Virus record (IMG/VR): IMGVR_UViG_3300022845_000008
Span: 1 to 41,443 of that record
DNA length: 41,443 nucleotides
Direction: 5' to 3' (one strand)
Source of the DNA: a virus
This document shows positions 2,407 through 39,276 of this stretch, piece after piece (within the stretch, counting starts at the first letter, position 1; each line of letters begins with the position of its first letter). Made by a program: the position numbers and the translations under genes. The notes under the pieces were generated by a model, which was not told where the DNA came from, searched no databases, and saw nothing but the letters and a program-made list of their open reading frames with translations.

Positions 2407-2460
2407 CATGCGCTGTTTTGAAATAATAAGTTCGCAAGATTTCGCTTGCTTTCGTGGTAT

Positions 2461-2498
2461 TGCCGTAGCAATTTACGTGCAGATTCCGTAGCAACTAC
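2461..2498. repeat. 15-bp repeat and second CCGTAGCAA box before integrase
   Basis: TGCCGTAGCAATTTA at 2461-2475 is an exact copy of 95-109; a shorter relative, TCCGTAGCAAC, follows at 2485-2495. They lie between the terminator and the integrase start, so they may be integrase arm sites, integrase-gene operators, or both. Confidence 0.45.
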
Positions 2499-2514
2499 GC
2501 GAAACATTCCCCAC

Positions 2515-3687
2515 ATGAAAGCATATAACTGGTCTAAAATATCGCACTTAGTCGTGCGCGGAAAAGGTAAATGGTGTCATGCTCGGATCGAGATGGACGG
2601 CAAGGAACACTGGCGCGCACTCAAGATCCAGGCCGATGAGGAGGGATTAAATGCCCCCTTTGTCATCGAAGCGCTGCGGGCGTTCAAGGTCGAGCTGGCC
2701 CGCGATACTTATGCGATCCTGCAACTTACCAGGACCCGCGACGATTGCTCGACCTTTGCCGAGCTCTTCGCGGCTTATCGGCAGGTTTGTGCCGGGCGAT
2801 CGATCAATCCGATCACGATGGAGCGCAATATTAAGGATATGCGGCTGATCATCCGGGCGATCCACGGCAAAAACTTCTCGGTTGATACCGCGCGTCTCTC
2901 GCTCTGCACGCTGGATCTGCTGATCGATTTCCGCGCCAAGCGCACCGAGGAGTTCAAGGCCAAGGCCGATGCGGCCGGCTGGGATCCCGAGATCTACAAA
3001 GCAAAGCTGCGCAGCGCCAGGGTGACGATCAAGAGCACGATTGGCCACGCTCGATCCCTCTTCGCCCAGGTAGTCCGCCAAGAGCGGGCCTATCGCGATC
3101 TATCGATCCCGGAGATCTCCGAGTTTATGGCCTTCCAGGCCGGCGGTGGCACCACGAGAGAGTTTATCATGCCAAAGCCCGAGGTGATCGCGGCGCTCAA
3201 GGCAGGCGCCGAGGAGTTTCTCACCTCGAATCCGCCGCTCTGGTTTGCGCTGGTCCTCACAGCCAACGGCGGCCTGCGCCGCGGCTCCGCGAAATACGCC
3301 AAGTGGGATTGGTTCAACAACGGCGCGGCCGATGGCTCCGCGATCATGCGGGTAGCGGTCGCCAAGCGCGGCACCTACACCACCGGGATCTCGCCCCGCA
3401 CCTGGGCCGCGATGAAGGAGCACCGGCTCAGCCCTTCCGAATACATTTTGCCCGGAGATCTCGCCGAGCGCGACGAAGTGCTCGAGGAGCTCAAGATCTG
3501 GCTCCGAGAGATCGGCTATCAAGAAAACCGTTGCCCGGTGCACGAGCTGCGCGGGCTCTATGGTAACACCGCCGCGAAAGAGCACGGCCTGCAAGCCGCC
3601 TCGGAAGGGCTCGGCCACCGCGACCAACGCACCACCCGAGATAGCTACGTGGAACACGGCACCGCAAAATTCACCGATGCCGTTTAG
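2515..3687 (+). CDS. int: phage tyrosine integrase
   Basis: 390 aa from the ATG at 2515 (the frame opens earlier at 2446, but that part crosses the repeat boxes). It is a site-specific recombinase of the tyrosine family. The catalytic domain is complete: first Arg in GGLRRGSA (about residue 264), a beta-strand Lys in VAVAKRGTYTTG, the HELRGLYGN box with the second His/Arg pair, and the GHRDQRTT...SYVEH end with the nucleophilic Tyr. The N-terminal arm- and core-binding regions precede it. Location 150 bp from the tRNA-Asn remnant indicates that it acts there. It shows nothing that identifies it as an integron integrase. Confidence 0.92.
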   Translation: MKAYNWSKISHLVVRGKGKWCHARIEMDGKEHWRALKIQADEEGLNAPFVIEALRAFKVELARDTYAILQLTRTRDDCSTFAELFAAYRQVCAGRSINPITMERNIKDMRLIIRAIHGKNFSVDTARLSLCTLDLLIDFRAKRTEEFKAKADAAGWDPEIYKAKLRSARVTIKSTIGHARSLFAQVVRQERAYRDLSIPEISEFMAFQAGGGTTREFIMPKPEVIAALKAGAEEFLTSNPPLWFALVLTANGGLRRGSAKYAKWDWFNNGAADGSAIMRVAVAKRGTYTTGISPRTWAAMKEHRLSPSEYILPGDLAERDEVLEELKIWLREIGYQENRCPVHELRGLYGNTAAKEHGLQAASEGLGHRDQRTTRDSYVEHGTAKFTDAV

Positions 3688-4357
3688 AAAAACGCAAAAA
3701 TAATTCATTGCTTAACAACTCAGATGAGGTGCGAGCGAAGCGAGTTACCGATACGAACGATGAAGGCGCGAGTGCTTTTGACCGGCGCAATTCTAAGAGT
3801 GCCTTGCAATAGTCGATGACTAGCTGGCCTTCAAATCCAAACGCCATAACCCCGTTGGGCGTGATAAATTTTATGGGGGTTTGGGTGTCCAATGCTAACT
3901 TGCTGAGCTTAGGGCTCTTAAGCCCTGCATTGGTGATAATAGCCCCGATGCGGTGTCCAATCTCTTTTCTCCCCCGCATTTCGATAATCTCCATAAATCC
4001 GCGTTGTGAGATTAGGCGACGACCATCAGCCAAATTGTAACACGGGATTTGCCACGACCCTATCGTGACATCACCGGCGTGGGTTGCGGTTGGAAGGTTC
4101 CATCTTGCCGCCGCAGCCTTGCGGGCAATATCCGCCCGGCGCTCGCTCGGCTGGATCGGCCATTAGATATCGCGTTCAATAAGGGTCTTAGCGATATCGT
4201 CGAATTGGGAATGATCCCCATCGGCGGCCGCAACCAGAGCGGAGACAGTATGTTCAGAAACACCATTATTAAGCACAGGTTCATGCTCAACATTTCCTGC
4301 GGGCGTGCGATTGGTGACCAATGTGGTCCAAATTTCACTGAAGCGTTCGTATTTCAT
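3671..4357 (-). pseudogene. broken P63C-domain antirepressor-like gene
   Basis: Read from 4357, the frame gives 64 aa (MKYERFSEIWTT...) and meets TAA at 4163-4165. The same frame then continues with ERRADIARKAAAARWNLPTA, DVTIGSWQIPC and RLISQRGF...TQTPIKFITPNGVMAFGFEG to 3671. This middle part matches my knowledge of P63C-domain phage proteins (KAAAARW, THEG.L.IG...I.C, RLLTQ.G, T.PI.F..P.G). After about ALLELRRSKA the family likeness stops and the frame ends opposite the end of integrase. So the gene has an in-frame stop and a lost C-terminus. If the stop is a sequencing error, a shortened protein would still result. Confidence 0.55.
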
Positions 4358-27410: not shown

Positions 27411-29429
27411 TCATGCGGCGTTTTCTCCGTAGTCTTCGGTCTCGGCGAGGATGAGGTATTTCACGAGATCGATAAAATCCTTGCAGGCGCCTTTCTGGCC
27501 GTCTTCCCCGGTCCAGTTCTGCAGCGCAAAGATTAAGTTTTTGCATTCCTTGGCGATATAGAGCCGCGGGCAATTCAAGCTATCGATCGGCTGCCCCTCA
27601 TCGTAGTCCAGGAGATCATTGATCAAGTGCACCCAATGCACCTTGGTATCATCGGCATAGGCGCCGCCGCTCGCGGGCACAAACTCCATGCCGAGCTCAT
27701 CGAGCTCCTCGAGCAGGGTGGTCGAGCCCTCGCGCTGCTGCGTGGGATGCGCGGCCGCGCGGCTGTCTAAGATCCGTGAATACACATCCTCCCCCTGCTC
27801 AGGGCGGCGCTTGCGCTTCCTGATCGGCGTATATTCGGGGGTATCATCCTTATCCCACTGGAAAGGTTTATCATCGAGCACGACCTCCTCCCAATCGGTG
27901 CGACCTTCGAGCCGGTAGATCTCGCGCAGGTAGCGATTCAGGCCCCAGCCGAGCGCCGTTTGCGCGGGGCCTTTGGCGCCATCGTGCTTTTCGCCCGGCA
28001 CCGCCCACTCGCCCATATCGCCCACGCCCGGCACGTAGCGGCCGGGGCAAGGGCTCTCGCGATAAATGTAATACGTTTTCCCGCGCGGCGTATCGAGCAC
28101 GCGGCACCAGAGCATCGCCCAATTACGACCGCTGCACGGATCGACCACCATATAAGCCGTGCCCGCGCGCGGCATCTGCTCGCCGGCCATCGCGGCGTGC
28201 ACGGCGGGATTGAATCGCGGAAATTTCCCCGAGATCGATTTCTCCGCGAGCCCGTAAAACCGCATGAGCTTATCCGCCGTAGGTGAATCTTTATAGAGCG
28301 CCACGAGCTCGGGCGCATTGCCATACGCATTGTCGAAACTGTGAAAGAAGAACACGCCGGATCTCTCATCATCGATCGCCATCACCCGCGGCACCTTGCG
28401 AAATTCACGGCCTGGCGCCGGCGCGGGTTGGCTCGGGCGCCCCTCCGCAAGCGCGATCAAATCCTGCCCGGCGAGCGTGAGCTCGAGATCGGGCTCCCCA
28501 CCATCGGCCGGGCACATATACGCCGTGCCCTCGGCGGTCGTGGTCGCGCGGTCGAGAAACATTTTAACCGTGGGCGAGTAGCCACCGGCCGCGGTGCCGA
28601 GCTCGCCGACCGGGGTAAAGGTAATCAACAACCAGCCCGCACGAGTCGCCACGCGAGCCTTGAGCGTTTCGATCCAGGAGGCCGGCACCAGCTCATCGCA
28701 CCAGACCACATCCAACTCGCCGCCCTCGATCTTGGCCGCATCCTGCTCGTAGTAGCGAAACGATAAATCACTGCGATTCGGCCACACGAGCTTCTCCTCC
28801 GAGAAACCCGTCTGCTGCTTGTAGGCAATGTAGGCCGGGTTGAGGCGGATACCCTTCTCCGTGCGCAGCTCGGCCGGAATATATTTATAAATCAGCGGCT
28901 GCTGATAGTCGCGACTCATGCTCGCATCCTGGTGAAAAGCCCAGGCGCGCGCCCCGGCCTTAAACTGCAAGAGCTTGTTTACCCGACTTGCGGCCCACTC
29001 GCTCTTGCCGCCCCGATTGCCGCCATTAAGCAGCAGGATCTTGATCGGCGCATCGCGCTTGAGCAACCGGCGCCGCACCGCCAGCGCCCAATCCTGCTTG
29101 GCCTGGAGCTCCTCGCGCTCGGTGATCGACTTCGCGGTGAGAATCATTTCCCGCGACGGATCCTCCCAGGGGAAACCGCACAACGCATCGAGCACCTTCC
29201 ACGATCCGGGCTCGAAACCATACCGCGCCGGATCGGCCTGCATCCGGTGAATCGTCTCCTCGCGCTCATTCAAAAACTCGAGCAAAGCCCCCACGCTATT
29301 CGCGCGCAGCCAAGCCTCATCCGGCAACGGTGCCACCGGGTGCGGAGTCACGCCCAGCAAGGCCCAAACGTCCGAGGACCAGGCTTCACCCGGGGCCAAC
29401 AAAGGAGCTGTTTGATCAGAGAGATTCAT
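27411..29429 (-). CDS. terL: terminase large subunit
   Basis: 672 aa. ATPase: Walker A GGNRGGKS (about residues 137-144), Walker B region LDVVWCDEL (about 240). Nuclease: a first acidic motif in YMVVDPCSGRNWAMLW (about 426) and later acidic residues (VVLDDKP, ESLNCPRLYIAKEC region). It drives DNA packaging at the portal. No small terminase is evident beside it; the HTH proteins at 126-746 and 36197-36517 are candidates. It is the first gene after the cassette array and one basic protein. Confidence 0.85.
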   Translation of the reverse strand: MNLSDQTAPLLAPGEAWSSDVWALLGVTPHPVAPLPDEAWLRANSVGALLEFLNEREETIHRMQADPARYGFEPGSWKVLDALCGFPWEDPSREMILTAKSITEREELQAKQDWALAVRRRLLKRDAPIKILLLNGGNRGGKSEWAASRVNKLLQFKAGARAWAFHQDASMSRDYQQPLIYKYIPAELRTEKGIRLNPAYIAYKQQTGFSEEKLVWPNRSDLSFRYYEQDAAKIEGGELDVVWCDELVPASWIETLKARVATRAGWLLITFTPVGELGTAAGGYSPTVKMFLDRATTTAEGTAYMCPADGGEPDLELTLAGQDLIALAEGRPSQPAPAPGREFRKVPRVMAIDDERSGVFFFHSFDNAYGNAPELVALYKDSPTADKLMRFYGLAEKSISGKFPRFNPAVHAAMAGEQMPRAGTAYMVVDPCSGRNWAMLWCRVLDTPRGKTYYIYRESPCPGRYVPGVGDMGEWAVPGEKHDGAKGPAQTALGWGLNRYLREIYRLEGRTDWEEVVLDDKPFQWDKDDTPEYTPIRKRKRRPEQGEDVYSRILDSRAAAHPTQQREGSTTLLEELDELGMEFVPASGGAYADDTKVHWVHLINDLLDYDEGQPIDSLNCPRLYIAKECKNLIFALQNWTGEDGQKGACKDFIDLVKYLILAETEDYGENAA

Positions 29430-29449: not shown

Positions 29450-29495
29450 ATTTATATGGAAATCAGGAAAATCAGGAAACGATCCGAAAGGAATT
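29450..29495. repeat. dispersed repeat element, copy 7 (left half)
   Basis: TATATGGAAATCAGGAAAAT followed by CAGGAAACGATCCGAAAGGAA. It is a divergent left arm in the gap between terminase and the basic protein; the last part overlaps that gene's stop. Confidence 0.6.
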
Positions 29496-29819
29496 ATCGG
29501 GCAGATAGTTAGCCAGCACCGCCGCGACCTTGCGGCCCGCCAGCGTAGGCGAGACCGTGAGCCCACCCCACGGATCGCGCACCGTGCGCAGCTTGACCTT
29601 AACTCCATCATCGAGACACCGGATCGTGAGCTCGAAACCGGAAGGCTTCGCCGCGGGCATCTTGCAATGCGAAGTATCGGGCAGCACATCCGGGAGCGCG
29701 AGCCGCTCTATGCGCTTGCGCTCCTTGGCGGCGCGCATCTTAGCAAACCGAGCCGCGCGGCAGCAGTTCTTACTCCGGTGCAAAGATTTGCGTCTTACCT
29801 GTGTGTTTAGGTGTGGCAT
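29472..29819 (-). CDS. basic protein bordering the cassette array
   Basis: 115 aa, very basic N-terminus (VRRKSLHRSKNCCRAARFAK, ERKRIERL) with a small beta-rich C-terminal domain (GFELTIRCLDDGVKVKLRTV). Its start codon lies 9 bp from the first cassette boundary (29828), so it is the phage gene directly at the array's left end. It could bind nucleic acid. Not recognised as an integron integrase or terminase subunit. Confidence 0.6.
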   Translation of the reverse strand: MPHLNTQVRRKSLHRSKNCCRAARFAKMRAAKERKRIERLALPDVLPDTSHCKMPAAKPSGFELTIRCLDDGVKVKLRTVRDPWGGLTVSPTLAGRKVAAVLANYLPDNSFRIVS

Positions 29820-29834
29820 ATTCAGTTGTTCGTC

Positions 29835-30101
29835 TCAGTAGTGGGTCTTTATGTTCTTCAGCATCGTCACGCGCCCTACAAATACTTTGCTTTCATCGTG
29901 CCTTCCGTCGGCTTCATGTAGCTGCGTGACCTCATCACTCGCCTCCTTTAGCGCCTCGGCCTCAGTGTCAAAATATGAAACATTTGGATAATACGGGTGA
30001 TCTGAAACCATAACCCATTTAGACGAACCAGACACTTCACCCAACTCCTCACGGCGGGCTGGCACTTCGGCGGGTAATGTCTCGATAGTTTCTTGTTTCA
30101 T
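29835..30101 (-). CDS. cassette 1 protein, unknown function
   Basis: 88 aa. Residues 1-26 (MKQETIETLPAEVPARREEL...) are encoded inside junction 1, the rest in the cassette body. The body (KWVMVSDHPYYPNVSYFDTE AEALKEAS) looks like a small alpha/beta domain of the kind found in many short phage proteins. The stop lies against the opening box of the array (29828-29834). Minus strand, same direction as phage transcription. Confidence 0.6.
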   Translation of the reverse strand: MKQETIETLPAEVPARREELGEVSGSSKWVMVSDHPYYPNVSYFDTEAEALKEASDEVTQLHEADGRHDESKVFVGRVTMLKNIKTHY

Positions 30102-30147
30102 TTTGATCCTTTCGGTGGTTCGTCGTCGGGTGAGTTAGATGTTCTAC
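30022..30147. repeat. attC-like junction 1
   Basis: R'' GACGAAC (30022-30028), R' GTTCTAC (30141-30147), 126 bp. Arms: CTTCACCCAAC on the left pairs with GTCGGGTGAG on the right, with an extra base on the left arm. It holds the start codon of the cassette 1 gene and the stop of the cassette 2 gene. Confidence 0.7.
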
Positions 30148-30383
30148 TGCCCGATTGCGGCCAGTTTTGCGCGTTGCTTGGCCCCTACGTGTGGAACGTG
30201 ACGTGATCGAGTCTGCTTCGTTAGCACCTTACCTAGTTTGCTGCGGTGATCGTGAGGGCTGACCTGCATGCCTGTTTTCTGCTTTGGGGTCGCGTCTTTC
30301 ATGTCGACGGGAACGAAGTTGCGTATAAAGGCTGATGACTGTGTCATTTCTTCTTGAGTTAATTGTCCTGATGGAACGTGCAT
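30144..30383 (-). CDS. cassette 2 protein, basic, unknown function
   Basis: 79 aa (MHVPSGQLTQEEMTQSSAFI...). Lys/Arg/His-rich second half (KLGKVLTKQTRSRHVPHVGA KQRAKLAA) suggests nucleic acid binding. The start lies about 43 bp inside the cassette; the stop TAG is made by the R' box of junction 1 (GTAGAAC on the minus strand). Confidence 0.55.
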   Translation of the reverse strand: MHVPSGQLTQEEMTQSSAFIRNFVPVDMKDATPKQKTGMQVSPHDHRSKLGKVLTKQTRSRHVPHVGAKQRAKLAAIGQ

Positions 30384-30412
30384 TATTATATAGTTGAGGG
30401 TTTGATTACGGG

Positions 30413-31180
30413 TTAAATTTCGGAGGTAGAACCATCGTTTCGAGACAACCTCGCTTCGCTCGGCGTCTCACACGAACTGTTCTGCTTCAAAAATTCACGG
30501 CCCACGTATTCCGTGTAAGCGGGCGGTATTCCTAGCGAGAGTTCGCTGAGTGTTAAATTCCAATCGACCTGCATGTGTTCCTTTTGCACCGCGAGCGGGA
30601 CGCGATACTCTCCCACGTTGCACACCGTCCGACCGTTGGGGCGGTTCGTCGATCCGGGGAAGATTCGGGCAGTGAATCGCTTGTGATCGCACGGCACTGG
30701 ATCAATCAGGAAACTCGCCTCAAACAGTCGATGTCGCCGCACCCTAATTCCGAACGATGTCCCGCACAGTTGGACGGGATCTTTCAGCGGAGCTCCTGGG
30801 ACGTTCTCCATAACCCAATGCTTGCCGCTCGCAACCAGTGCTTGCCGGGTCGGCTCGATCATATCCGGCCATTTCGGTTTGTGCCCCGGTCGGCAATTCC
30901 GATAGACTGTGAATGTCTGGCACGGCGGACTTGCGTGAATCACGTCGTATTCGTGCCCGTGAGCTCGCAGATATTCCAACGCATCACCTTGAATGAACGT
31001 GTGGGGATTGTTTGGCTGAGGGTTGATGTCCACCCCTACAATGTCGAATCCGGCTCGGCGGTAGCCTTCCCCTGCACAACCAGCCCCGCAAAACAGATCA
31101 AGCAGAACAAGACGGTGCTGACCAACCTGCTTGGCGCTAGGTGTCGGCGTTTCGTTTTCGATTATACCCTGTTTATTCAT
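30413..31180 (-). CDS. C5 cytosine DNA methyltransferase (cassette 3)
   Basis: 255 aa. It transfers a methyl group from SAM to C5 of cytosine in DNA. Motif I DLFCGAGCAGEGYRRAGF with the VGVD acidic pair, motif IV SPPCQTF with the catalytic Cys, motif VI ENVPGAP and a motif VIII-like RVRRHRLFE are present. It is short compared with bacterial Dcm enzymes and resembles compact phage methyltransferases. No cognate nuclease is next to it, so protection of phage DNA from host restriction is the likely use. Residues 1-27 come from junction 3 and the last about 20 from junction 2. The start overlaps the cassette 4 stop (ATGA). Confidence 0.85.
   Translation of the reverse strand: MNKQGIIENETPTPSAKQVGQHRLVLLDLFCGAGCAGEGYRRAGFDIVGVDINPQPNNPHTFIQGDALEYLRAHGHEYDVIHASPPCQTFTVYRNCRPGHKPKWPDMIEPTRQALVASGKHWVMENVPGAPLKDPVQLCGTSFGIRVRRHRLFEASFLIDPVPCDHKRFTARIFPGSTNRPNGRTVCNVGEYRVPLAVQKEHMQVDWNLTLSELSLGIPPAYTEYVGREFLKQNSSCETPSEARLSRNDGSTSEI
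30426..30485. repeat. attC-like junction 2 (60 bp)
   Basis: R'' GTAGAAC, R' GTTCTGC. TCGTTTCGAGAC pairs with GTCTCACACGA, with an extra C on the left arm, and a GC-rich hairpin lies between. It is identical to junction 14 up to GTTC. It encodes the C-terminal tag ETPSEARLSRNDGSTSE of the methyltransferase. Confidence 0.8.
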
Positions 31181-31234
31181 TCGTTTAACCCTGTTTGGTT
31201 GTTCGTCGCAGGTGGCAGACCTGAAGCGTTCTGT
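31102..31234. repeat. attC-like junction 3
   Basis: R'' GCAGAAC (31102-31108), R' GTTCTGT (31228-31234), 133 bp. GGTGCTGACCAACCTGC pairs with GCAGGTGGCAGACCT, with extra bases on the left arm. It carries the stop of cassette 4's gene and the start of the methyltransferase. Confidence 0.7.
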
Positions 31235-31557
31235 CTCTTGAGTTCGATGATTTCACATGCCGCTTGGACACCTCGATTAAATCGGTAGTATTTATCGGAG
31301 CCTTGTTCGTATGGATTATCGCTGAATGAGCCATCCTTACACTTCCCTGTCTCGTATCCTTCGCGCTGCACGGGATCGGCTAGATCACAGACTATCGCGT
31401 TGGGCATAATTTTATATTTATAGGTGGGAGGTGGCTTGATAGGTCGCTTGCTACGCATCGCGGCAGCATGTCCTGCTGCGTATCCTCTTCGATAATCGGA
31501 TACAGAACCAGTCGCTAGTGTGGAACGCGATTGCTCGCAGTGTGTTTTATCGGGCAT
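31177..31557 (-). CDS. cassette 4 protein, unknown function
   Basis: 126 aa. N-terminal tag MPDKTH.EQSRSTLATGS is encoded in junction 4 and shared with the cassette 11 and 13 proteins. The body starts YRRGYAAGHAAAMRS and includes YETGKCKDGSFSDNPY, a pattern resembling small phage proteins with repeated G..AG helices. The last about 17 residues come from junction 3. Confidence 0.6.
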   Translation of the reverse strand: MPDKTHCEQSRSTLATGSVSDYRRGYAAGHAAAMRSKRPIKPPPTYKYKIMPNAIVCDLADPVQREGYETGKCKDGSFSDNPYEQGSDKYYRFNRGVQAACEIIELKRQNASGLPPATNNQTGLNE

Positions 31558-31624
31558 GGTATTTTATTCGGTTGAGGGTTTCGAGGCCGCGATCTCGTCG
31601 CGTCCCACATCTCGGTCGTTCGAC
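31502..31624. repeat. attC-like junction 4 (123 bp family)
   Basis: R'' ACAGAAC, R' GTTCGAC. GTGTGGAACGCGA on the left pairs with TCGCGTCCCACAT on the right. It is a near-copy of junctions 11 and 13, all exactly 123 bp; identity stops at GAAC and GTTC. It holds the C-terminal tag and stop of gene 5 and the start and N-terminal tag of gene 4. Confidence 0.8.
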
Positions 31625-31947
31625 TGTGCGGGTTCATTGGTAATCGTTTCGGCCTGTCGAATGTATCGAAAAGCTGTTTCGTGCCGTGTTTCATTCGGCC
31701 ATTTTTGAGATACGGCATAAATCAAATCATAGTATTTTGCCTCCAATTGTTCAATTTCGTCTGCGGCTTTTACCATGAGTTCATCGGTCGCGATTTCGTC
31801 CACAGTGGACATTTCTCCACAGTCGCCAGACCAGCGTCGCGGAGTTTGAATTGCGCCCTCGCGTAGTCGCTCAACTAGAGTCGAACCCACAGCCAGAGCC
31901 AACGAGGCCGACTGTCCTTTTTCGGGTGATTGATTTGGTGTATTCAT
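31564..31947 (-). CDS. cassette 5 protein, unknown function
   Basis: 127 aa. The first 22 residues (MNTPNQSPEKGQSA ... AVGS) lie in junction 5 and match those of the cassette 12 protein. The last about 19 (NDRDVGRDEIAASKPSTE) lie in junction 4 and match the end of the cassette 12 protein. The unique body (VDEIATDELMVKAADEIEQL ...) is helical. So two otherwise unrelated proteins share both ends because they share both junction types. Confidence 0.6.
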   Translation of the reverse strand: MNTPNQSPEKGQSASLALAVGSTLVERLREGAIQTPRRWSGDCGEMSTVDEIATDELMVKAADEIEQLEAKYYDLIYAVSQKWPNETRHETAFRYIRQAETITNEPAQSNDRDVGRDEIAASKPSTE

Positions 31948-31992
31948 ATCAGGTATTACTTCGGGCCTCGTTGCTCATCAGAACCGTTAGGC
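31879..31992. repeat. attC-like junction 5
   Basis: R'' GTCGAAC, R' GTTAGGC (canonical integron core form), 114 bp. GAGCCAACGAGGCC pairs with GGGCCTCGTTGCTC; the left arm carries one extra C, as L'' does in integron attC sites. Near-copy of junction 12. Confidence 0.8.
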
Positions 31993-32005
31993 AAAGAAAG
32001 ATCCG

Positions 32006-32452
32006 ATGCGCAGCGAGTATTCAAAGGAAGAAGAGAATCGTTGGTATTCGCTCGGCGAGTCAGTCGCTCTTGCCATCCCATATCTCCCTTGGACAGCAGC
32101 TCCCTGGCTACGGCCAGCGACAACTGATGCCGATTTGCCAGCGCGCGTTCAGGCGTTTGAGCTGATCGAACGGCCCCACGTCGCGCGCATCGAAGCAGCC
32201 GTTGAGCAGTGGCTTCGAGACCAGAAGCCACCCGTATTAGAAGAAGAGCCCATGTTTTTCTTTTCATTACGATTTCAGGTTGTCGGTTCTTTACTGATGT
32301 CATTCCGTTTATTGGCTGATGCGCTGCCATATCCAGCCGACATTTCGGAGCGTGAGATCGCGCATCGTTGGCTGATCGATTGGTGGCGCGATAGTGGGGC
32401 CTTCCACGGAGTTGGCCACACCTCTGCGGAGCACGAAGGAGAGCCTAACTAG
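32006..32452 (+). CDS. cassette 6 protein, plus strand, unknown function
   Basis: 148 aa (MRSEYSKEEENRWYSLGESV...), Trp-rich, helical, apparently soluble (LIERPHVARIEAAVEQWLRD, REIAHRWLIDWWRDSG). It starts 13 bp after the GTTAGGC box and its stop overlaps the closing GCCTAAC: exactly the compact layout of an integron cassette. It is the only plus-strand gene in the array and opposes the phage transcript, so it would need its own promoter. The minus-strand frame under it is judged a shadow. Confidence 0.65.
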   Translation: MRSEYSKEEENRWYSLGESVALAIPYLPWTAAPWLRPATTDADLPARVQAFELIERPHVARIEAAVEQWLRDQKPPVLEEEPMFFFSLRFQVVGSLLMSFRLLADALPYPADISEREIAHRWLIDWWRDSGAFHGVGHTSAEHEGEPN

Positions 32453-32553
32453 ACGCCACAGCGCAACGCGGGCAGCTGTCCGATATTCGCAAGCATCACC
32501 GCAATCATGATCTCTCCTCCTTTGGCCCGCGTGGCTCAGCTTTAACGTAGGAT
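32443..32553. repeat. attC-like junction 6
   Basis: R'' GCCTAAC, R' GTAGGAT (GTA in place of GTT), 111 bp. GCGCAACGCGGGC pairs with GCCCGCGTGGCTC, with an extra base on the left arm. R' was placed by spacing and confirmed by the ATCCTAC closing box of cassette 7. Confidence 0.65.
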
Positions 32554-32921
32554 TTTCGGGCAAAGAACCTCTTGATTTTCTCTGCATCTTCCGGCGAAGA
32601 GGTTTGCAGCATGAGGGCTTTGAATTTCGCCATACTCAGCTTTTCTACATTTTTATCGTATATTTTTTGCACACGCACGAGAGCGGTCACTCGCCATCCC
32701 GTATGCGTTTCCTCGTTCACCAGTCCTGCGAATCCGTCGATTTTACTTTGCTTCCAGTGACGCGGTGGCTTCACCAACAATTGGCGCGGAGGCGGCACGA
32801 TAATCGTGTATCTTACCGTGCCGTCATTAGTTCCAGCCGTGGTGCAGTTCGTGTCCGTGCAGTATGATATTAAGTAATCCCTGCTAGTCGCGGTCGCAGT
32901 TGTCTGATCGTATGTTCCCAT
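32505..32921 (-). CDS. cassette 7 protein, unknown function
   Basis: 138 aa from ATG 32921, preceded by TAGGAT as ribosome site, which is itself the cassette's end box on this strand. A longer frame starts from TTG 32951. The protein has a Thr/Tyr-rich start (TYDQTTATATSRDYLISYCT), an IIVPPPRQLLVKPPRHWKQS segment and a helical charged end. The last codons (EPRGPKEERS) are in junction 6. Family not recognised. Confidence 0.6.
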   Translation of the reverse strand: MGTYDQTTATATSRDYLISYCTDTNCTTAGTNDGTVRYTIIVPPPRQLLVKPPRHWKQSKIDGFAGLVNEETHTGWRVTALVRVQKIYDKNVEKLSMAKFKALMLQTSSPEDAEKIKRFFARKSYVKAEPRGPKEERS

Positions 32922-32928
32922 AGTATTT

Positions 32929-33033
32929 ATCCTACCAGCGATTCGAGACAAGCCGCCTCACGCCGCTGGTTTGCGCGAGAGCTTGGTGTTGTTTAAAGAT
33001 TATTGGTTGGCTGTCTCACTCGGGTTGTTCGCG
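32929..33033. repeat. attC-like junction 7
   Basis: R'' ATCCTAC, R' GTTCGCG, 105 bp. TTCGAGACAAGCC pairs with GGCTGTCTCACTCG, with extra bases on the left arm; the arm sequence and the spacing to R' match junctions 2 and 14. Confidence 0.65.
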
Positions 33034-33311
33034 GAAAGAGCATCGCGGGCGCAGTTTTCGAGCAGCCCGGCGAGCCATGTCGTATTCTCCCCGAACCAAA
33101 GGCAGGCGCACGCGCCCTCATTAAGCATGGTGCCGCTCGGGAGTTTCTTCGGTGGTTGGACACCAGTTCCAGAGCACCGTTTGCAATCGGGAGTTGGCGG
33201 GTAATGCAGTCGGTCTTCAGGGAAGCGGGCGCGAAGCTCCGCTAACAAATCCACAGAGCCAACGCCGTTGGCGTTTTCCTTGAGGGGCGGCGTTGTAGTG
33301 GCGTGGCTCAT
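33000..33311 (-). CDS. cassette 8 protein with Cys motif
   Basis: 103 aa from ATG 33311 (MSHATTTPPLKENANGVGSV...); the longer frame to 33443 crosses the next gene and is rejected. Contains CKRCSGTG, a DnaJ-type zinc half-motif, and CAC. The first 24 residues are in junction 8 and the last about 11 in junction 7. Function unknown. Confidence 0.55.
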   Translation of the reverse strand: MSHATTTPPLKENANGVGSVDLLAELRARFPEDRLHYPPTPDCKRCSGTGVQPPKKLPSGTMLNEGACACLWFGENTTWLAGLLENCARDALSANNPSETANQ

Positions 33312-33324
33312 GTCAGGGTTCGCG
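33240..33324. repeat. attC-like junction 8
   Basis: R'' CGCTAAC, R' GTTCGCG, 85 bp. AGAGCCAACGCC pairs with GGCGTGGCTC; R''-to-L'' spacing equals that of junction 5. R'' has one mismatch to the opening box of its cassette (GTTCGCG). Confidence 0.65.
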
Positions 33325-33921
33325 CTATTCGAGAGCGCCGGACATTTGTTGCATAGTTTCATAGTCGCATCCTGTGTTTTCCATGTCCGATCGCCCCGAG
33401 AAGAATTGTCCCGCGCCAAGTATTGAGAAGGGGTCGCCATCATTCGGATTCCAGATTCCTTCCTCGATCATCCATGCCATGCGATAGAGTGCGCACAGCA
33501 TTCGAGCGCCGTCCTTGCCGTATTTCCCCTCTGAGAATGATTTCTTTCTGGTGTAGCCATTCACGGTCAGCGACGCTTTCCATCTTACGCACACCTGGCC
33601 TGTCCCTGGTCGGTCAAGACGCTTCGAGATTCCGCCAGTCATGCGCGTCATGCAGCCACGCCGGTAACGCCCCTTTGTAGAGTATAGGCGCTGTTTAGAC
33701 TTTCTCGCCGGGCGTAAATCTAGTAGTCGTTTGAGTTCCGATTTGAGTTCTGAAATTTTACGCGCAGCATTTTTACTCCTCACGCCAGCACCTTTATCGT
33801 AGTAGTTTAATGCACATCTTACCCGATGCAGTTCGGAGGCAAGACGCGAACGAGGCGAGACAGCCAACCCGATTGGGCGCTGCTGGTTACTCGCGGGAGA
33901 TTTAAGGTCGTCGGTAGTCAT
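33325..33921 (-). CDS. cassette 9 protein, probable AP2-like DNA-binding protein
   Basis: 198 aa. The first 25 residues (MTTDDLKSPASNQQRPIGLA ...) lie in junction 9. A basic helical segment follows (NAARKISELKSELKRLLDLR), then CVRWKASLTVNGYTRKKSFS and KYGKDGARMLCALYR, which looks like an AP2/integrase-type DNA-binding fold (three strands and a helix) as found in homing endonucleases and phage proteins. No nuclease motif is seen. The stop lies directly against the opening box. The start overlaps the cassette 10 stop (ATGA). Confidence 0.65.
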   Translation of the reverse strand: MTTDDLKSPASNQQRPIGLAVSPRSRLASELHRVRCALNYYDKGAGVRSKNAARKISELKSELKRLLDLRPARKSKQRLYSTKGRYRRGCMTRMTGGISKRLDRPGTGQVCVRWKASLTVNGYTRKKSFSEGKYGKDGARMLCALYRMAWMIEEGIWNPNDGDPFSILGAGQFFSGRSDMENTGCDYETMQQMSGALE

Positions 33922-33951
33922 TGGTCGGGTTGGCTGCTCTTGATGTTCGAC
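33845..33951. repeat. attC-like junction 9
   Basis: R'' CGCGAAC, R' GTTCGAC, 107 bp. GAGACAGCCAACCCG pairs with CGGGTTGGCTGCTC: perfect nine-base core with one extra base on the left arm. Confidence 0.75.
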
Positions 33952-34244
33952 GAAAGAATTTCTAGGAACTCCCGAATCTTTGGCCTTAGATATTTATCGC
34001 GCACTCTTTCGACCACACAGATGTGCCCGTGGTGCTTTTCCTCCCATCGGCGGCAGTGGCTCCCGTATAGGTCTAGCAGGTCGTGAAAATTGTAGAGATT
34101 GATTTCGTCGGAAGCTTCAGCGTCCCACTTAAAAAACCAATACTGCTCCAGGTCTTCTTGGCTTTGCTTAGCTAAGTCATCATCGAGCGATTGAGCCAAA
34201 GATGTTATCGTGTTTTCTATATCTGTTTCGGTTACTTGTGTCAT
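33918..34244 (-). CDS. cassette 10 protein, unknown function
   Basis: 108 aa (MTQVTETDIENTITSLAQSL...), acidic and helical with WFFKWDAEASDEINLYNFHD and CRRWEEKHHGHICVVERVRD. It may be a small regulator; no family is recognised. The start lies inside the cassette body, the last 9-10 codons in junction 9. Confidence 0.6.
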   Translation of the reverse strand: MTQVTETDIENTITSLAQSLDDDLAKQSQEDLEQYWFFKWDAEASDEINLYNFHDLLDLYGSHCRRWEEKHHGHICVVERVRDKYLRPKIREFLEILSSNIKSSQPDQ

Positions 34245-34268
34245 AGTGTTTTCGTTATGTCAGTTAGG

Positions 34269-34328
34269 GTCGAACGAGTCAGAGCTAGCAATTTCGCTCC
34301 GCTCAATCGCTAGTCTTTCATGTTCGGA
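34269..34328. repeat. attC-like junction 10 (60 bp)
   Basis: R'' GTCGAAC, R' GTTCGGA. CAGAGCTAGCAATT pairs with AATCGCTAGTCT with an extra base on the left arm; a short TTTCGCTCCGCTC loop lies between. The stop of gene 11 is inside. Confidence 0.7.
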
Positions 34329-34510
34329 AGAAATAGCGGAGTGATGCACCCCTCTTCGCATCTGCGGCAATAGAGAGTGTATCCACGAGGCTCTATCTTA
34401 CTTGGATAAAGTTCCGCGAACTCGTGTTGTTTACAGGTTGGGCAAACCGGAATTTCCGAACCAGTCGCTGGTGTGGAACGCGATTGCTCGCTTTGGATTT
34501 TATCACTCAT
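34310..34510 (-). CDS. cassette 11 protein, zinc ribbon
   Basis: 66 aa. N-terminal tag MSDKIQSEQSRSTPATGS from junction 11. The body has two Cys pairs, CPTC and CRRC, about 25 residues apart, so a zinc ribbon. The last about 7 residues (LPNMKD) come from junction 10. The coding body is only about 120 bp. Confidence 0.65.
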   Translation of the reverse strand: MSDKIQSEQSRSTPATGSEIPVCPTCKQHEFAELYPSKIEPRGYTLYCRRCEEGCITPLFLPNMKD

Positions 34511-34577
34511 GTTATTTTAATCGGTTGATTGCTTCGTGGCCGCGCACTCGTCGCGTCCCACATCTCTATTGTTCTGC
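34455..34577. repeat. attC-like junction 11 (123 bp family)
   Basis: R'' TCCGAAC, R' GTTCTGC. Near-copy of junctions 4 and 13 between GAACCAGTCGCT and the CCCACATCT region. It holds the end of gene 12 and the start of gene 11. Confidence 0.8.
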
Positions 34578-34918
34578 CACTTCGCATTGAAGTCGTTCAT
34601 CATCTGTTCATCGGCAAATCCCATCCATGTTTCACCATTCACGGTTGCGCCTCCGCTATGCCATTTCCCCGCCTTGCCGTGGATTGGCCACGCTTCGGGG
34701 CCGCAGTATTCACGACACCACTCCATGACGTTCTGCCAGCGTTGAGAGTTTATGCTGTCCGTGTATGCCTCCACCATCCAAGGCGTTCCATCCCACACTT
34801 TATGCGTGAGATCGTCCGTTGAGTCATAGGCCATGACGCGATGATAAAGAGCAGAACCAACAGCCAGAGCCCACGAGGCCGACTGTCCTTTTTCGGGTGT
34901 TTCATTTGGTGTATTCAT
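34517..34918 (-). CDS. cassette 12 protein, unknown function
   Basis: 133 aa from ATG 34918 (MNTPNETPEKGQSA ... AVGS). A longer frame to 35137 covers gene 13 and is rejected. Trp-rich body (KVWDGTPWMVEAYT, WCREYCGPEAWPIHGKAGKW) of unknown family. N- and C-terminal tags are shared with the cassette 5 protein because junctions 12 and 11 are copies of 5 and 4. Confidence 0.65.
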   Translation of the reverse strand: MNTPNETPEKGQSASWALAVGSALYHRVMAYDSTDDLTHKVWDGTPWMVEAYTDSINSQRWQNVMEWCREYCGPEAWPIHGKAGKWHSGGATVNGETWMGFADEQMMNDFNAKWQNNRDVGRDECAATKQSTD

Positions 34919-34963
34919 GTTCTTAGTTTTTCGGGCCTCGTTGCTCATCTGAGCTGGTTCTGC
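34851..34963. repeat. attC-like junction 12
   Basis: R'' GCAGAAC, R' GTTCTGC, 113 bp, so here both ends are fully complementary. AGAGCCCACGAGGCC pairs with GGGCCTCGTTGCTC with an extra base on the left arm. Near-copy of junction 5. Confidence 0.8.
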
Positions 34964-35256
34964 GATGATTCGGCCATCGGGGTTATCGTGAGGGTTTGAT
35001 CCCTTGCGCCGTCGTCGATCCATGTGAATCCGTCGAGCTTGCAGGCGTCCTTCACGCCCATGAGTCGGCCTAGTGTGTTCACTCCCGAGACTGTTACTCG
35101 GGCTAGTTCTAGATAGTCTGCGAGTTCCTCTAAGCATATAGGCAGTCTATCCTTGGGGACTTCCAGGAGGTCCATTACATGGTTGATCGTATATCCGGGA
35201 GCAGAACCAGTCGCTGGTGTGGAACGCGATTGCTCGCCCTGTGTTTGAGTAGGCAT
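34945..35256 (-). CDS. cassette 13 protein, unknown function
   Basis: 103 aa. N-terminal tag MPTQTQGEQSRSTPATGS from junction 13. The body (INHVMDLLEVPKDRLPICLE, ELADYLELARVTVSGVNTLG) suggests a small mixed helical/strand fold. The end (AESSQNQLR) is in junction 12. No family recognised. Confidence 0.65.
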   Translation of the reverse strand: MPTQTQGEQSRSTPATGSAPGYTINHVMDLLEVPKDRLPICLEELADYLELARVTVSGVNTLGRLMGVKDACKLDGFTWIDDGARDQTLTITPMAESSQNQLR

Positions 35257-35323
35257 ATTATTTTAGGAGGTTGATTGTTTCGTGAGCGCGTTCTCGTCGC
35301 GTCCCACATCTCGGTCGTTCTAC
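35201..35323. repeat. attC-like junction 13 (123 bp family)
   Basis: R'' GCAGAAC, R' GTTCTAC. Third copy of the 123-bp type. On this side gene 14 stops exactly at R', so the DVGRDE tag sequence that the junction could encode lies untranslated downstream of its stop. Confidence 0.8.
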
Positions 35324-35643
35324 CCACCGCCGTTGCTGTAGTCGTTGGCGATTATCTCAGGAATCTTGGCGCATAGCACCTCATCGCAATAGTTGCCGTC
35401 GTCTTGTTGATACGCCCTCTTGCCAATTTCCTTCCCGCACTTCTCAAGCAGTCCACGGTAGTAGTCCGTGTTTCGTTGATTCTGTGCGGCGGTGTCCATC
35501 CAGTTTGCGATTCGACGTGCTACTGATTCCGCGAGCACGGTATCCATTTCTATGTGCTTCGTCTCTTCGTCGCACCAACATTGAGCGGCCATTTGACGCG
35601 CTTCTTCCATCCAAGTTTCGGGAGTTGTTGTTGTTGTATTCAT
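35320..35643 (-). CDS. cassette 14 protein, phage-type small protein
   Basis: 107 aa (MNTTTTTPETWMEEARQMAA...). The C-terminal half (DYYRGLLEKCGKEIGKRAY, DEVLCAKIPEIIANDY) resembles small proteins common in phage early regions. The start lies 28 bp before the R'' box of junction 14; the stop overlaps the R' box of junction 13. Confidence 0.65.
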   Translation of the reverse strand: MNTTTTTPETWMEEARQMAAQCWCDEETKHIEMDTVLAESVARRIANWMDTAAQNQRNTDYYRGLLEKCGKEIGKRAYQQDDGNYCDEVLCAKIPEIIANDYSNGGG

Positions 35644-35657
35644 TGTATTATTACGGG

Positions 35658-36200
35658 TTAAAATTCGGAGGTAGAACCATCGTTTCGAGACAACCTCGCT
35701 TCGCTCGGCGTCTCACACGAACTGTTCTCTCTAAGAGATTTGGGGTTCATCACGAGGACTGACTCGCAGTCCCATCCATAGAGGCTGTGTGGGCGAGCGA
35801 AGCGGGTTTCCTGTTGGCCTCTCTCGGTCAGATACACGGCGTCGATTCCGCTCATCTCTAACGGTTGGAACAACGGGAAACTCCAATTAGGCATCAGTTC
35901 GACCCACGGGAGTTGATCCCTCGCGTCTTCCAGCGAGTCGATGACAAGCGCCACCCCCTCAAATTCAATATCGAAATGGGTTGATAGATCACCGAACGAT
36001 TCAGCATCGCACCACTCACGCCATCCGTAATTGCACCCCACGGGGGATGCCCAGAATCCCCCACGAGGTTTCACTAAATGATCGTCCGTAATCGGTTTGA
36101 ACTTCGACGGGTCGTATTGACGCGCACCGTAATGCCGCAAGGAGAGAACAAGTCGCTGCTGAGCAACCGCCGGAGCGGTGGAGTTTTCTTTTGTATTCAT
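35658..36200 (-). CDS. cassette 15 protein, phage-type hypothetical
   Basis: 180 aa from ATG 36200 (MNTKENSTAPAVAQQRLVLS). The longer frame to 36308 overlaps the neighbouring gene. The body (YGARQYDPSKFKPITDD, KPRGGFWASPVGCNYGWREW, Asp/Glu-rich strands) looks like a globular phage protein of unknown role. The first 19 residues come from junction 15 and the last about 20 from junction 14, giving the same C-terminal tag as the methyltransferase. Confidence 0.65.
   Translation of the reverse strand: MNTKENSTAPAVAQQRLVLSLRHYGARQYDPSKFKPITDDHLVKPRGGFWASPVGCNYGWREWCDAESFGDLSTHFDIEFEGVALVIDSLEDARDQLPWVELMPNWSFPLFQPLEMSGIDAVYLTERGQQETRFARPHSLYGWDCESVLVMNPKSLRENSSCETPSEARLSRNDGSTSEF
35671..35730. repeat. 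attC-like junction 14 (60 bp)
   Basis: R'' GTAGAAC, R' GTTCTCT. Identical to junction 2 up to GTTC; likeness also continues about 25 bp to the left of R'', with one difference, so cassettes 2 and 14 share their end. Confidence 0.8.
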
Positions 36201-36242
36201 AGTCTTGGGCGCTCCGTCTGTGGCAGAGCTTGAGCGTTCTGT
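36143..36242. repeat. attC-like junction 15 (array end)
   Basis: R'' AGAGAAC, R' GTTCTGT, 100 bp. CGGAGC (36170-36175) pairs with GCTCCG (36211-36216), and CTGAGCAACC with GGCAGAGC less exactly. It contains the start of gene 15 and the last 14-15 codons and stop of the resident phage gene 36197-36517. Confidence 0.6.
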
Positions 36243-36517
36243 GATTCCATGCGCTGCCAGATCCGCCGGATCGCGGTTTGACCCACCCCAAACTCCAATG
36301 CCAGGCACTTGCGCTCTTCGAGCGAGCCCGCAGTGGCCCGCAGGCGGGATTGGATCTGCGCCCGCTCATCGGGATCGAGCCGCTTCGAGTAAATGCCGGG
36401 CTCCTCGTGCAACGCGCCGCCGCCGGTGCGCATGAGGCCCGGACAGTAGCGAGCAATCAGCGACTGGCACCGGGTCGCCGTGCTGTAATCATCGGAGTGA
36501 GCGTAGGAGGTAATCAT
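36197..36517 (-). CDS. HTH DNA-binding phage protein at the array edge
   Basis: 106 aa. Residues about 50-90 (RAQIQSRLRATAGSLEERKC, LEFGVGQTAIRRIWQRM) form a helix-turn-helix. The final 14-15 residues (SQNAQALPQTERPRL) are encoded by junction 15, so the original C-terminus was probably replaced when the array formed. Role unknown; a late regulator or small terminase is possible because it precedes the packaging genes once the array is ignored. Confidence 0.6.
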   Translation of the reverse strand: MITSYAHSDDYSTATRCQSLIARYCPGLMRTGGGALHEEPGIYSKRLDPDERAQIQSRLRATAGSLEERKCLALEFGVGQTAIRRIWQRMESQNAQALPQTERPRL

Positions 36518-37545: not shown

Positions 37546-37714
37546 GATTGAGCTTCGAGGCATCGATCACGGCGCGGTTGATTTCACCTGGGCCGGGATT
37601 GCTCCACTGCCACCAGAGCGAGCCGATCGCGCAATGCGGGCACTCGATAAATCCATGCACTCCGCTCAGCGTGCGCGGATCGCTGGCCTTGCCGCAGTCG
37701 GGGCAGATCTTCAC
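37517..37714 (-). CDS. zinc-ribbon protein beside the helicase
   Basis: 65 aa. CPDC (residues 4-7) and CPHC (about 25-28) form a zinc ribbon. It overlaps the helicase stop by four bases, so it is translated with it. Its C-terminal codons reach into repeat copy 8. A helper in replication or transcription is possible. Confidence 0.6.
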   Translation of the reverse strand: MKICPDCGKASDPRTLSGVHGFIECPHCAIGSLWWQWSNPGPGEINRAVIDASKLNLSKPQTSES

Positions 37715-39276
37715 GAGCCACCTCCGAGGTATTTCGATTTATCGAATTTCACGCCATCGGCCACCGAGGGCGCGCGCGGCGCGGGCGCTGTTCCCGCCGG
37801 GCGCTTGTCGCCATGCGGCACAAATCGGGTGTAGCATTTCTCGAAGACGGCTTTGACCGCACTCGTGCGACCGGTGCGGCGCTTCTCCTGATACCACCAG
37901 ACCTCGATCCGCACGAGGCCGGGCTGCACTTGCGAATTGCCCGCCGTATCTTCGGGCGGCATGTAGAGAAAGATCATGCGATCGGCATCGTGATAGATGG
38001 CCTGGCTCTCGCGCAGATCGCCGCGGTGCGGCATGCGGTGGATCAGCTTGCCATCTTCGTCGTGCTTGGCCTGTCGAGATTCGGAGAGGCCGCTCTCATT
38101 GAGCTGCGCGGCGACCACCATCACACAATCGAGCTCGCGCTGCAGGGCTTGGAGCTGGTGCGAGACAAAGGCCACGCGGGCCTCGCTATTACTCAGGCCC
38201 TTCCGATCGGTATCGAAGATTTGCAGGTAATCGACCAGGATCACATCGGGCGTGCCGTGCAGGTGACACCAGGCGCGGGCATGCGAGCAGAGATCCTCGA
38301 TCGTCGCCAGTGGCGAGGCCGCTTCGTTTTCGATACAGAAGAGGCGCTTATTCGCCCACTCCTCGATCATGCGTTCCATCTCGTCGGAAAAGGCTTTCTG
38401 GCGATCCACCGGCTGATCCTCGATATCGAGATCATACCCCACCTCGGCGCTCGCCATCATCTTGCAAAATCCTTTTACCCCCGTTTCCCGCACATAAGCC
38501 AGGACACGCTGCCCCTGGTGGAGCGAGGCCCGCGCGATCTGGCGCAGTGCCACACTCTTGCCGTGCCCGGAGCCGCCCCCGATCACGATAAATTTATCAT
38601 CGGCCCCACCGGCGCCAAAAGGTTTACACTGCGCATCGAAGCGCTCAAGCCCACTCGGCACCCAGCGACTGCGATCCACTTTGCCCGAGGCCAGCGCGAG
38701 CACTTCATCCTTGGCCGAATCGATCTTTTCCTCGAGGGATTGCTTCGCCGCCTTGCGCCCGAGCCCGATCAGCTTGCGGCCAATATCCGCCGCGCTCTCG
38801 GCAAACTTATCGCGGGTCGAGAAATCAAGGGCCGATTCACGCAGACTCGCCGCGAGCTTCACCGTGTGGCGCATCTCCCAAAGCAGCACCACAAGCTCGG
38901 CATAATAGCGCGTATTGGCCGAGGTGCTCGCGCTGGCCGTCATTTCCGATAGGGCCTGCACACCGCCGATCTTCTCAAGATCGCCGCGCAGCTGCAGCTC
39001 TTCCGCCAGCACCGCCACATCGACCCCCGACTGCCCCGCCTGGCGCAGCTCGTGGATCAGCCCCCATACGAGGCCACTCGCGGGCTCGTAAAATGCCTTC
39101 GCCTTCACCCCGCAATTCACCGCGATCGCCCAGGCTTCGCCGGTATCATCGGCGATCACGCTCGAGATCAGCCGGTGCTCAGCCTCGATCGAGTGCGGCG
39201 GCGCCTGCCCGCCGATCACCTCGATCTCCTGCCCCGCAGGCCCGACGATATGCTCGACTCGTTTCTCGGCGCTCAT
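37711..39276 (-). CDS. replicative DnaB-type helicase
   Basis: 521 aa. The N-terminal domain starts PPHSIEAEHRLISSVI, as in DnaB. The RecA-like domain has Walker A GGGSGHGKS (about residues 236-244), Walker B VILVDYLQIF (about 352), and the H-motif region FVSHQLQALQRELDCVMVVAAQL. It unwinds DNA at the phage fork. Downstream of the initiator gene with a 4-bp overlap. Confidence 0.85.
   Translation of the reverse strand: MSAEKRVEHIVGPAGQEIEVIGGQAPPHSIEAEHRLISSVIADDTGEAWAIAVNCGVKAKAFYEPASGLVWGLIHELRQAGQSGVDVAVLAEELQLRGDLEKIGGVQALSEMTASASTSANTRYYAELVVLLWEMRHTVKLAASLRESALDFSTRDKFAESAADIGRKLIGLGRKAAKQSLEEKIDSAKDEVLALASGKVDRSRWVPSGLERFDAQCKPFGAGGADDKFIVIGGGSGHGKSVALRQIARASLHQGQRVLAYVRETGVKGFCKMMASAEVGYDLDIEDQPVDRQKAFSDEMERMIEEWANKRLFCIENEAASPLATIEDLCSHARAWCHLHGTPDVILVDYLQIFDTDRKGLSNSEARVAFVSHQLQALQRELDCVMVVAAQLNESGLSESRQAKHDEDGKLIHRMPHRGDLRESQAIYHDADRMIFLYMPPEDTAGNSQVQPGLVRIEVWWYQEKRRTGRTSAVKAVFEKCYTRFVPHGDKRPAGTAPAPRAPSVADGVKFDKSKYLGGGS

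Follow-up and report, generated by a model that had tools for sequence, protein, structure and literature searches.

Integrons or integrase-less cassette arrays (CALINs) have been described in 21 phages, and IntI1 recombined five of six tested phage attC sites with attI1 (Qi et al. 2023; PMC9892861). These phages include Tetrasphaera phage TJE1, Polaribacter phage P12002L, Pseudoalteromonas phage PH101, Shewanella prophage M16-3, and Vibrio phage Va_90-11-286_p16 (p16) (PMC9892861). The R″/R′ consensus of attC and the G|TT crossover have been described (PMC12901181), as have bottom-strand selectivity and the part it plays in cassette orientation (PMC8946536, PMC11023631). Here, we describe an array of 15 cassettes, each followed by a complete attC site, at positions 29828 to 36242 (+ strand) of IMG/VR virus record IMGVR_UViG_3300022845_000008, which was analyzed in full (41,443 bases; here called the window). 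Like the phages of Qi et al. (PMC9892861), most of which lack intI, the window carries attC sites and cassettes, among them a DNA methyltransferase cassette. However, most genes in TJE1, M16-3, and p16 lie on the attC top strand, whereas those of the window are, with one exception, inverted and often have their start codon in attC; moreover, the array is larger than the three sites of TJE1, and arrays of this design occur repeatedly within a phage clade, in most cases next to the gene for the terminase large subunit (TerL). We consider it likely that the region is a CALIN of inverted cassettes fitted to the operon of a Verrucomicrobiota phage and worked in trans by a host IntI. Phage CALINs are thus already known, while recurrent inverted arrays appear to be new; a literature search, thin on subscription journals, found no description of gene-inverted phage arrays or of Verrucomicrobiota phage arrays. 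The original prediction for this DNA knew of no described phage with an array of this size in its core operon. There is prior art in the earlier phage CALINs (PMC9892861), and our detector found 12 linked cassettes in M16-3 alone.

A total of 15 units were delimited between 29828 and 36242, each with a 7-bp box at one end and the exact reverse complement of that box at the other (15/15 pairs). The same 15 units had been proposed originally, but with one mismatched pair; all pairs are exact, and the pair beginning with GTA was probably meant. Fourteen boxes start with GTT and one with GTA (GTAGGAT/ATCCTAC, 32547 to 32553 and 32929 to 32935). Chains were counted with a strict detector, a mismatch-tolerant version having been rejected as it linked dozens of false boxes anywhere. 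The longest chance chains had three links, both in 500 first-order shuffles of the region and in 100 shuffles of the whole window, and the remainder of the phage outside the array gave a chain of one. As a control, the detector found 12 linked pairs in M16-3 and eight in p16. Junctions between cassettes were 60 to 133 bp long, three of them exactly 123 bp, as predicted; the two sites thought to be 113 and 114 bp both measure 113 bp, and the two 60-bp sites described as identical (A and M) are near-identical, with all differences confined to the final bases of R′. Arm complementarity averaged 19.3, compared with 11.3 in shuffled sequences (highest of 200 shuffle means, 13.9). The junctions have the R″-L″-L′-R′ layout of an imperfect palindrome with extra bases on the L″ side, the bulge side being consistent at most sites, and every cassette lies between the start of an R′ box and the complementary R″ at its far end. 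Judged by their sequence, the junctions between the window cassettes are attC sites, and with 15 linked pairs against at most three in shuffles, the idea of integron-type cassettes with attC-like junctions held up. The attC loops are variable and could not be aligned by MAFFT. A pattern built from the duplicated 60-bp attC matched nothing in the genome contigs, and in IMG/VR it returned the same phage only.

Two IMG/VR contigs, L002 and L001, encode a TerL identical to that of the window and are 100% identical to it in all else compared (L002 over ~21 kb and L001 over 12.4 kb). At the 29828 end, L002 is longer by 592 bases, which constitute a 16th cassette (C16) in first position that is missing from the window; L001 starts inside the end of the same 592-bp insert. 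On the + strand, the window reads CATATTCAGTTG|TTCGTC, and L002 reads CATATTCAGTTG|TTCGATCC ... GGATCGAAC ... CAGCTGAGTTG|TTCGTC. The extra cassette of L002 and L001 is spliced exactly at the crossover 29828/29829, at G|TT, within an attI-like insertion point (29817 to 29834, + strand) that sits 8 to 9 bp before the ATG of the gene at 29472 to 29819. As read from this alignment, the insert is one complete cassette placed at the attI-like site, reflecting a recent gain or loss of a single cassette. The difference bears out the predicted site-specific cassette recombination. The condition named at the outset as refuting it, related phages with the same genes but no junctions, was not borne out: a single whole cassette separates the near-identical phages, and the cassette content of distant relatives differs.

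Since the box pairs are symmetric, the array direction cannot be read from them alone, and three lines of evidence were used. First, the insertion boundary between L002 and the window at the attI-like end puts the array on the + strand. Second, in a bulge test that allowed bulges in one arm only and took unpaired bases on the L″ side as canonical, seven sites favored the + strand of the window, five were neutral, and two were against it (canonical top-strand controls: 11 for, 4 neutral, and 0 against). Third, a box-flank profile trained on 25 Verrucomicrobiota chromosomal attC sites favored the + strand at 13/16 window sites. The 60-bp duplicates agree in this respect: their likeness continues past GTTCTAC into the neighboring cassette on the − strand and ends at the opposite end, at G|TT on the + strand, which implies a polarity opposite to that first assigned. 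The earlier statement that this likeness stops at GTTC on the R′ side was incorrect, and the R″/R′ polarity proposed with it has to be reversed, with the attC top strand, the crossover, and the attI-like end all pointing to the + strand.

Fourteen of the 15 window cassette genes are on the − strand, C10 being the only exception, and the genes are therefore inverted relative to attC. An ordinary cassette has its attC at the 3′ end of the gene; the inversion seen in the window is found likewise in six relatives. Scoring of the coding strand by codon usage was noisy, and domain matches and start positions were used in its place. All eight inverted genes with domain or family support agree with this orientation: C13 of the window and seven Pfam-domain cassette genes of three related phages (L186, L196, and L206), namely, a 6-pyruvoyl tetrahydropterin synthase (PTPS), a C5 methyltransferase, Dam, N6_N4_Mtase (twice), and MT-A70 (twice), all opposite to the attC top strand. 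Only in C10 (32006 to 32452) does the open reading frame (ORF) lie on the attC top strand, and only C10 opens with a textbook GTTAGGC box.

TerL relatives were found in 12/388 Verrucomicrobiota genomes (best identity, 47%); a search of 296 genomes from a second phylum gave a single match, a weak one. Among the 12 is genome G026, whose 5.7-kb contig L186 encodes a TerL ~40% identical to that of the window; in the same position as in the window, L186 carries at least four cassettes, including three for DNA methyltransferases. Among TerL relatives in IMG/VR, cassette counts were 11 in L206, 7 in L224, 5 in L196, 12 in L305, and 4 in L388 (shuffled controls reach 3); these counts may be off by one, as the last chain link comes without a confirming attC. 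The array lies upstream of TerL in L206, L305, L388, and L186, as in the window, and downstream in L224 and L196. An attC top strand opposite to the genes was supported in the other phage arrays by the bulge test (36 for, 1 neutral, and 0 against) and, in four of them, by the flank profile (24/24 sites). The majority of TerL relatives, many of them fragments, had no array. The small gene adjoining TerL was considered as a marker of a common attI and set aside, its support being weak for L186 (one comparison, E = 0.003) and lacking for L206. Two further cassettes of these phages may be mentioned. The PTPS gene (QueD-like; L206, 5297 to 5641) hints at deazaguanine DNA modification or queuosine, and an ORF of L388 (3496 to 4548) resembles, by eye, a PAPS reductase-type protein (ILSLGAGVQSSALALMAANG).

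Start codons were surveyed in seven phage arrays, covering 51 cassettes with an upstream attC and counting ORFs that cover at least 55% of the cassette and start with ATG or GTG. On the gene strand, 51/51 cassettes had a qualifying ORF, 36/51 a possible start within attC, and 19 such a start with a Shine-Dalgarno-like motif. The opposite strand of the same cassettes gave 40, 20, and 3, respectively, and canonical arrays (n = 54) gave 42, 3, and 0. Shine-Dalgarno-like motifs at attC starts were rare in the window itself (one case), where the core genes mostly do without the motif too (present in 7/24). Many window genes have leaders encoded by attC, of the form M..EQSRSTPATGS or MNTPN.(S/T)PEKGQSAS.ALAVGS.

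The source of the recombining enzyme was sought in both hosts and phages. The intI profile TIGR02249 was absent from the window and exceeded its cutoff in 0/34 phage records checked; the window thus has no intI with the IntI-specific domain, as a complete integron would. True IntI above the curated cutoff was present in 109/388 Verrucomicrobiota genomes, including 5 of the 12 with TerL relatives, and the chromosomal arrays of this phylum have the same GTTGGNN, GTTCGNN, and GTTCTGC boxes as the phages. A phage attC and a chromosomal attC shared 83% identity. It is also possible, though unlikely, that the phage's own divergent tyrosine recombinase (2446 to 3687, + strand) moves the cassettes in place of a host IntI, making this a phage-encoded integron-like system. 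The enzyme is encoded in the phage and has the conserved residues of a tyrosine recombinase (R254, LR344-345, and Y377, in the numbering of the 389-amino-acid protein at 2518 to 3684). Furthermore, 27 bp downstream of its stop codon, a 34-bp sequence (3714 to 3747) is 97% identical, in inverted orientation, to the C16 attC and ends at G|TT. However, this is only half an attC, without the L″ arm, and it may be a phage attP or a recombination scar. The protein also lacks the IntI-specific insertion, with 88 residues between R254 and the HxxR motif compared with ~130 in the M16-3 IntI. It had no match among Pfam integrase families at E = 0.01, and searches with it retrieved no sequence from IMG/VR, phages, plasmids, or PDB; its relatives, weak and distant, occurred only in the Verrucomicrobiota genomes searched and are ordinary tyrosine recombinases. 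Considering the presence of IntI in Verrucomicrobiota with like boxes, its absence from all 34 phage records, and the missing insertion, a host IntI acting in trans is the likeliest enzyme. Next to the half attC, an ORF at 3671 to 4033 (− strand) looks P63C-like by eye, with no Pfam match; its C terminus comes from the half attC, as if truncated by recombination.

Sedentary chromosomal integrons of Verrucomicrobiota (L275, L280, L287, L290, and L298) share with the window the attC structure, an AAC[AC]A spacer, GTTC/GTTG boxes, and the cassette boundaries. Unlike the window array, they lie beside IntI, their genes are canonical in orientation (9/9 in L275 and 7/7 in L290 by longest ORF; in L287 by reading the ORFs), and starts fall outside attC (0 to 2 exceptions per array). 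The agreement in attC type would fit a block that was acquired in a single event from an integron of a host chromosome and has been decaying since, with no adaptation to the phage. We regard this as improbable, since host arrays are canonical and a captured block would be canonical too, whereas seven phages show inversion; in addition, no box pair carries a mismatch, and phages that are otherwise identical differ by one cassette. That the junctions are instead RNA or DNA hairpins (terminators or regulatory leaders), with box pairing as a by-product, is hardly credible and largely refuted: the hairpins are strong and a search of the array region matched no Rfam family, which leaves some room, but complementary boxes link the two ends of a gene-bearing unit rather than the sides of one hairpin, a cassette was exactly gained or lost, and the sites are homologous to the attC of real integrons. 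Insertion at secondary attG sites (Loot et al. 2024, as outlined in PMC12901181) likewise places cassettes off-platform with no adjoining intI; from that outline, the phage site differs in that it recurs beside TerL and accumulates a whole array.

Several points weigh against a CALIN served by a host integrase. Sites C and K contradict the + strand in the bulge test, and sites G (33257 to 33324) and H (32929 to 33012) are poor attC sites with weak arms. The R′ boxes are mostly GTTC..., departing from the textbook GTTRRRY, a feature common to integrons of the host phylum; since many Verrucomicrobiota chromosomal attC sites beside IntI are also GTTC, the consensus is too narrow for the phylum and does not bar membership. 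The gain/loss junction falls within a 9-bp shared word (CGAACAACT), so that slippage between short repeats is possible for that single event; box structure and the L002/window difference together make site-specific recombination far likelier. Finally, the IntI would have to be supplied by the host in trans.

We propose that, in an integron-bearing host, IntI would bind the folded bottom strand of attC and recombine it with the double-stranded attI-like site, crossing over at G|TT, the position seen between L002 and the window. The bottom-strand selectivity of IntI would set cassette orientation, aligning each inverted gene with the phage operon, and the orientation is as observed in the arrays. 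A phage transcript would then run through the array, with every cassette supplying a translation start inside or just after attC and no cassette promoter; the possible start codons are in place. Gain and loss of single cassettes would yield a changeable accessory set in which, as in the cassettes seen here, DNA methyltransferases recur, most likely with a function against host restriction. Somewhat more tentatively, we favor the view that phages of this clade maintain a platform dedicated to cassettes next to TerL, supplied from a separate pool of "start-side" cassettes with inverted genes, in which attC serves as both recombination site and translation leader. The IntI strand rule would place the genes in the operon, where all are potentially expressed, compared with the first cassettes only in host arrays.

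The genes of the window are nearly all on the − strand. The tyrosine recombinase and a repressor-like ORF are on the + strand and point to a temperate phage. On one side of the array are a DnaB-like replicative helicase (37711 to 39276, − strand; PF03796, E = 4.2e-25) and then small genes, including a phage gene at the distal end (36197 to 36517, − strand) whose last codons are encoded by attC 0; on the other side are the small gene at the attI-like end (29472 to 29819, − strand) and TerL (27411 to 29429, − strand; identified by its TerL relatives and a weak Terminase_6N match). This gene content agrees with the original prediction of a temperate phage with an array between replication and packaging genes. 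When the outer flanks were joined in silico, they read ...GAA TCA CAG AAC AAC TGA at ATG...; the gene at 36197 to 36517 would end in ...MESQNN*, its stop only 2 bp before the next ATG. Joined in this way, the flanks form two adjacent phage genes 2 bp apart, which suggests that the array occupies a formerly compact operon. The G+C content of the array (29828 to 36242) is 52%, compared with 60% in the flanking phage genes. The L002/L005 contig seemingly ends at the same base as the right end of the window (41443), which may be a physical end of the genome or an assembly break common to both.

All attC sites are on the + strand. From the attI-like end, they are N (30022 to 30147, 126 bp), M (30426 to 30485, 60 bp), L (31102 to 31234, 133 bp), K (31502 to 31624, 123 bp), J (31880 to 31992, 113 bp), I (32443 to 32553, 111 bp, R′ = GTAGGAT), H (84 bp), G (68 bp), F (33845 to 33951, 107 bp), E (34269 to 34328, 60 bp), D (34455 to 34577, 123 bp), C (34851 to 34963, 113 bp), B (35201 to 35323, 123 bp), A (35671 to 35730, 60 bp), and attC 0 (36143 to 36242, 100 bp), which ends the array at G|TTCTGT (36236 to 36242). 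In the same direction, with all genes but C10 on the − strand, the cassettes encode C15 (29835 to 30101, 88 amino acids [aa]; start and leader within attC N), C14 (30144 to 30383, 79 aa), C13 (30413 to 31180, 255 aa; start within attC L), C12 (31177 to 31557, 126 aa; start within attC K), C11 (31564 to 31947, 127 aa; start in attC J and end in attC K), C10 (+ strand, 148 aa; the sole canonical orientation), C9 (32505 to 32921, 138 aa), C8 (33000 to 33311, 103 aa; start within attC G), C7 (33325 to 33921, 198 aa), C6 (33918 to 34244, 108 aa), C5 (34310 to 34510, 66 aa; start within attC D), C4 (34517 to 34918, 133 aa; start within attC C), C3 (34945 to 35256, 103 aa; start within attC B), C2 (35320 to 35643, 107 aa), and C1 (35658 to 36200, 180 aa; start within attC 0). 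In searches of Pfam and PHROGs with the window cassette proteins, the C5 DNA methyltransferase C13 was the sole clear match (phrog_363, E = 8.9e-37), and C7 had a weak AP2 domain (E = 5.8e-5, under the curated cutoff).

Cassette capture would be a recurring gene acquisition device of this phage lineage rather than a stray event. The cassette design, with attC as a 5′ leader and the gene on the recombinogenic strand, is the opposite of the customary layout but still suits the strand rule of IntI. These arrays raise the possibility that phages and host integrons exchange cassettes in trans and that antirestriction functions may vary between otherwise identical phages.

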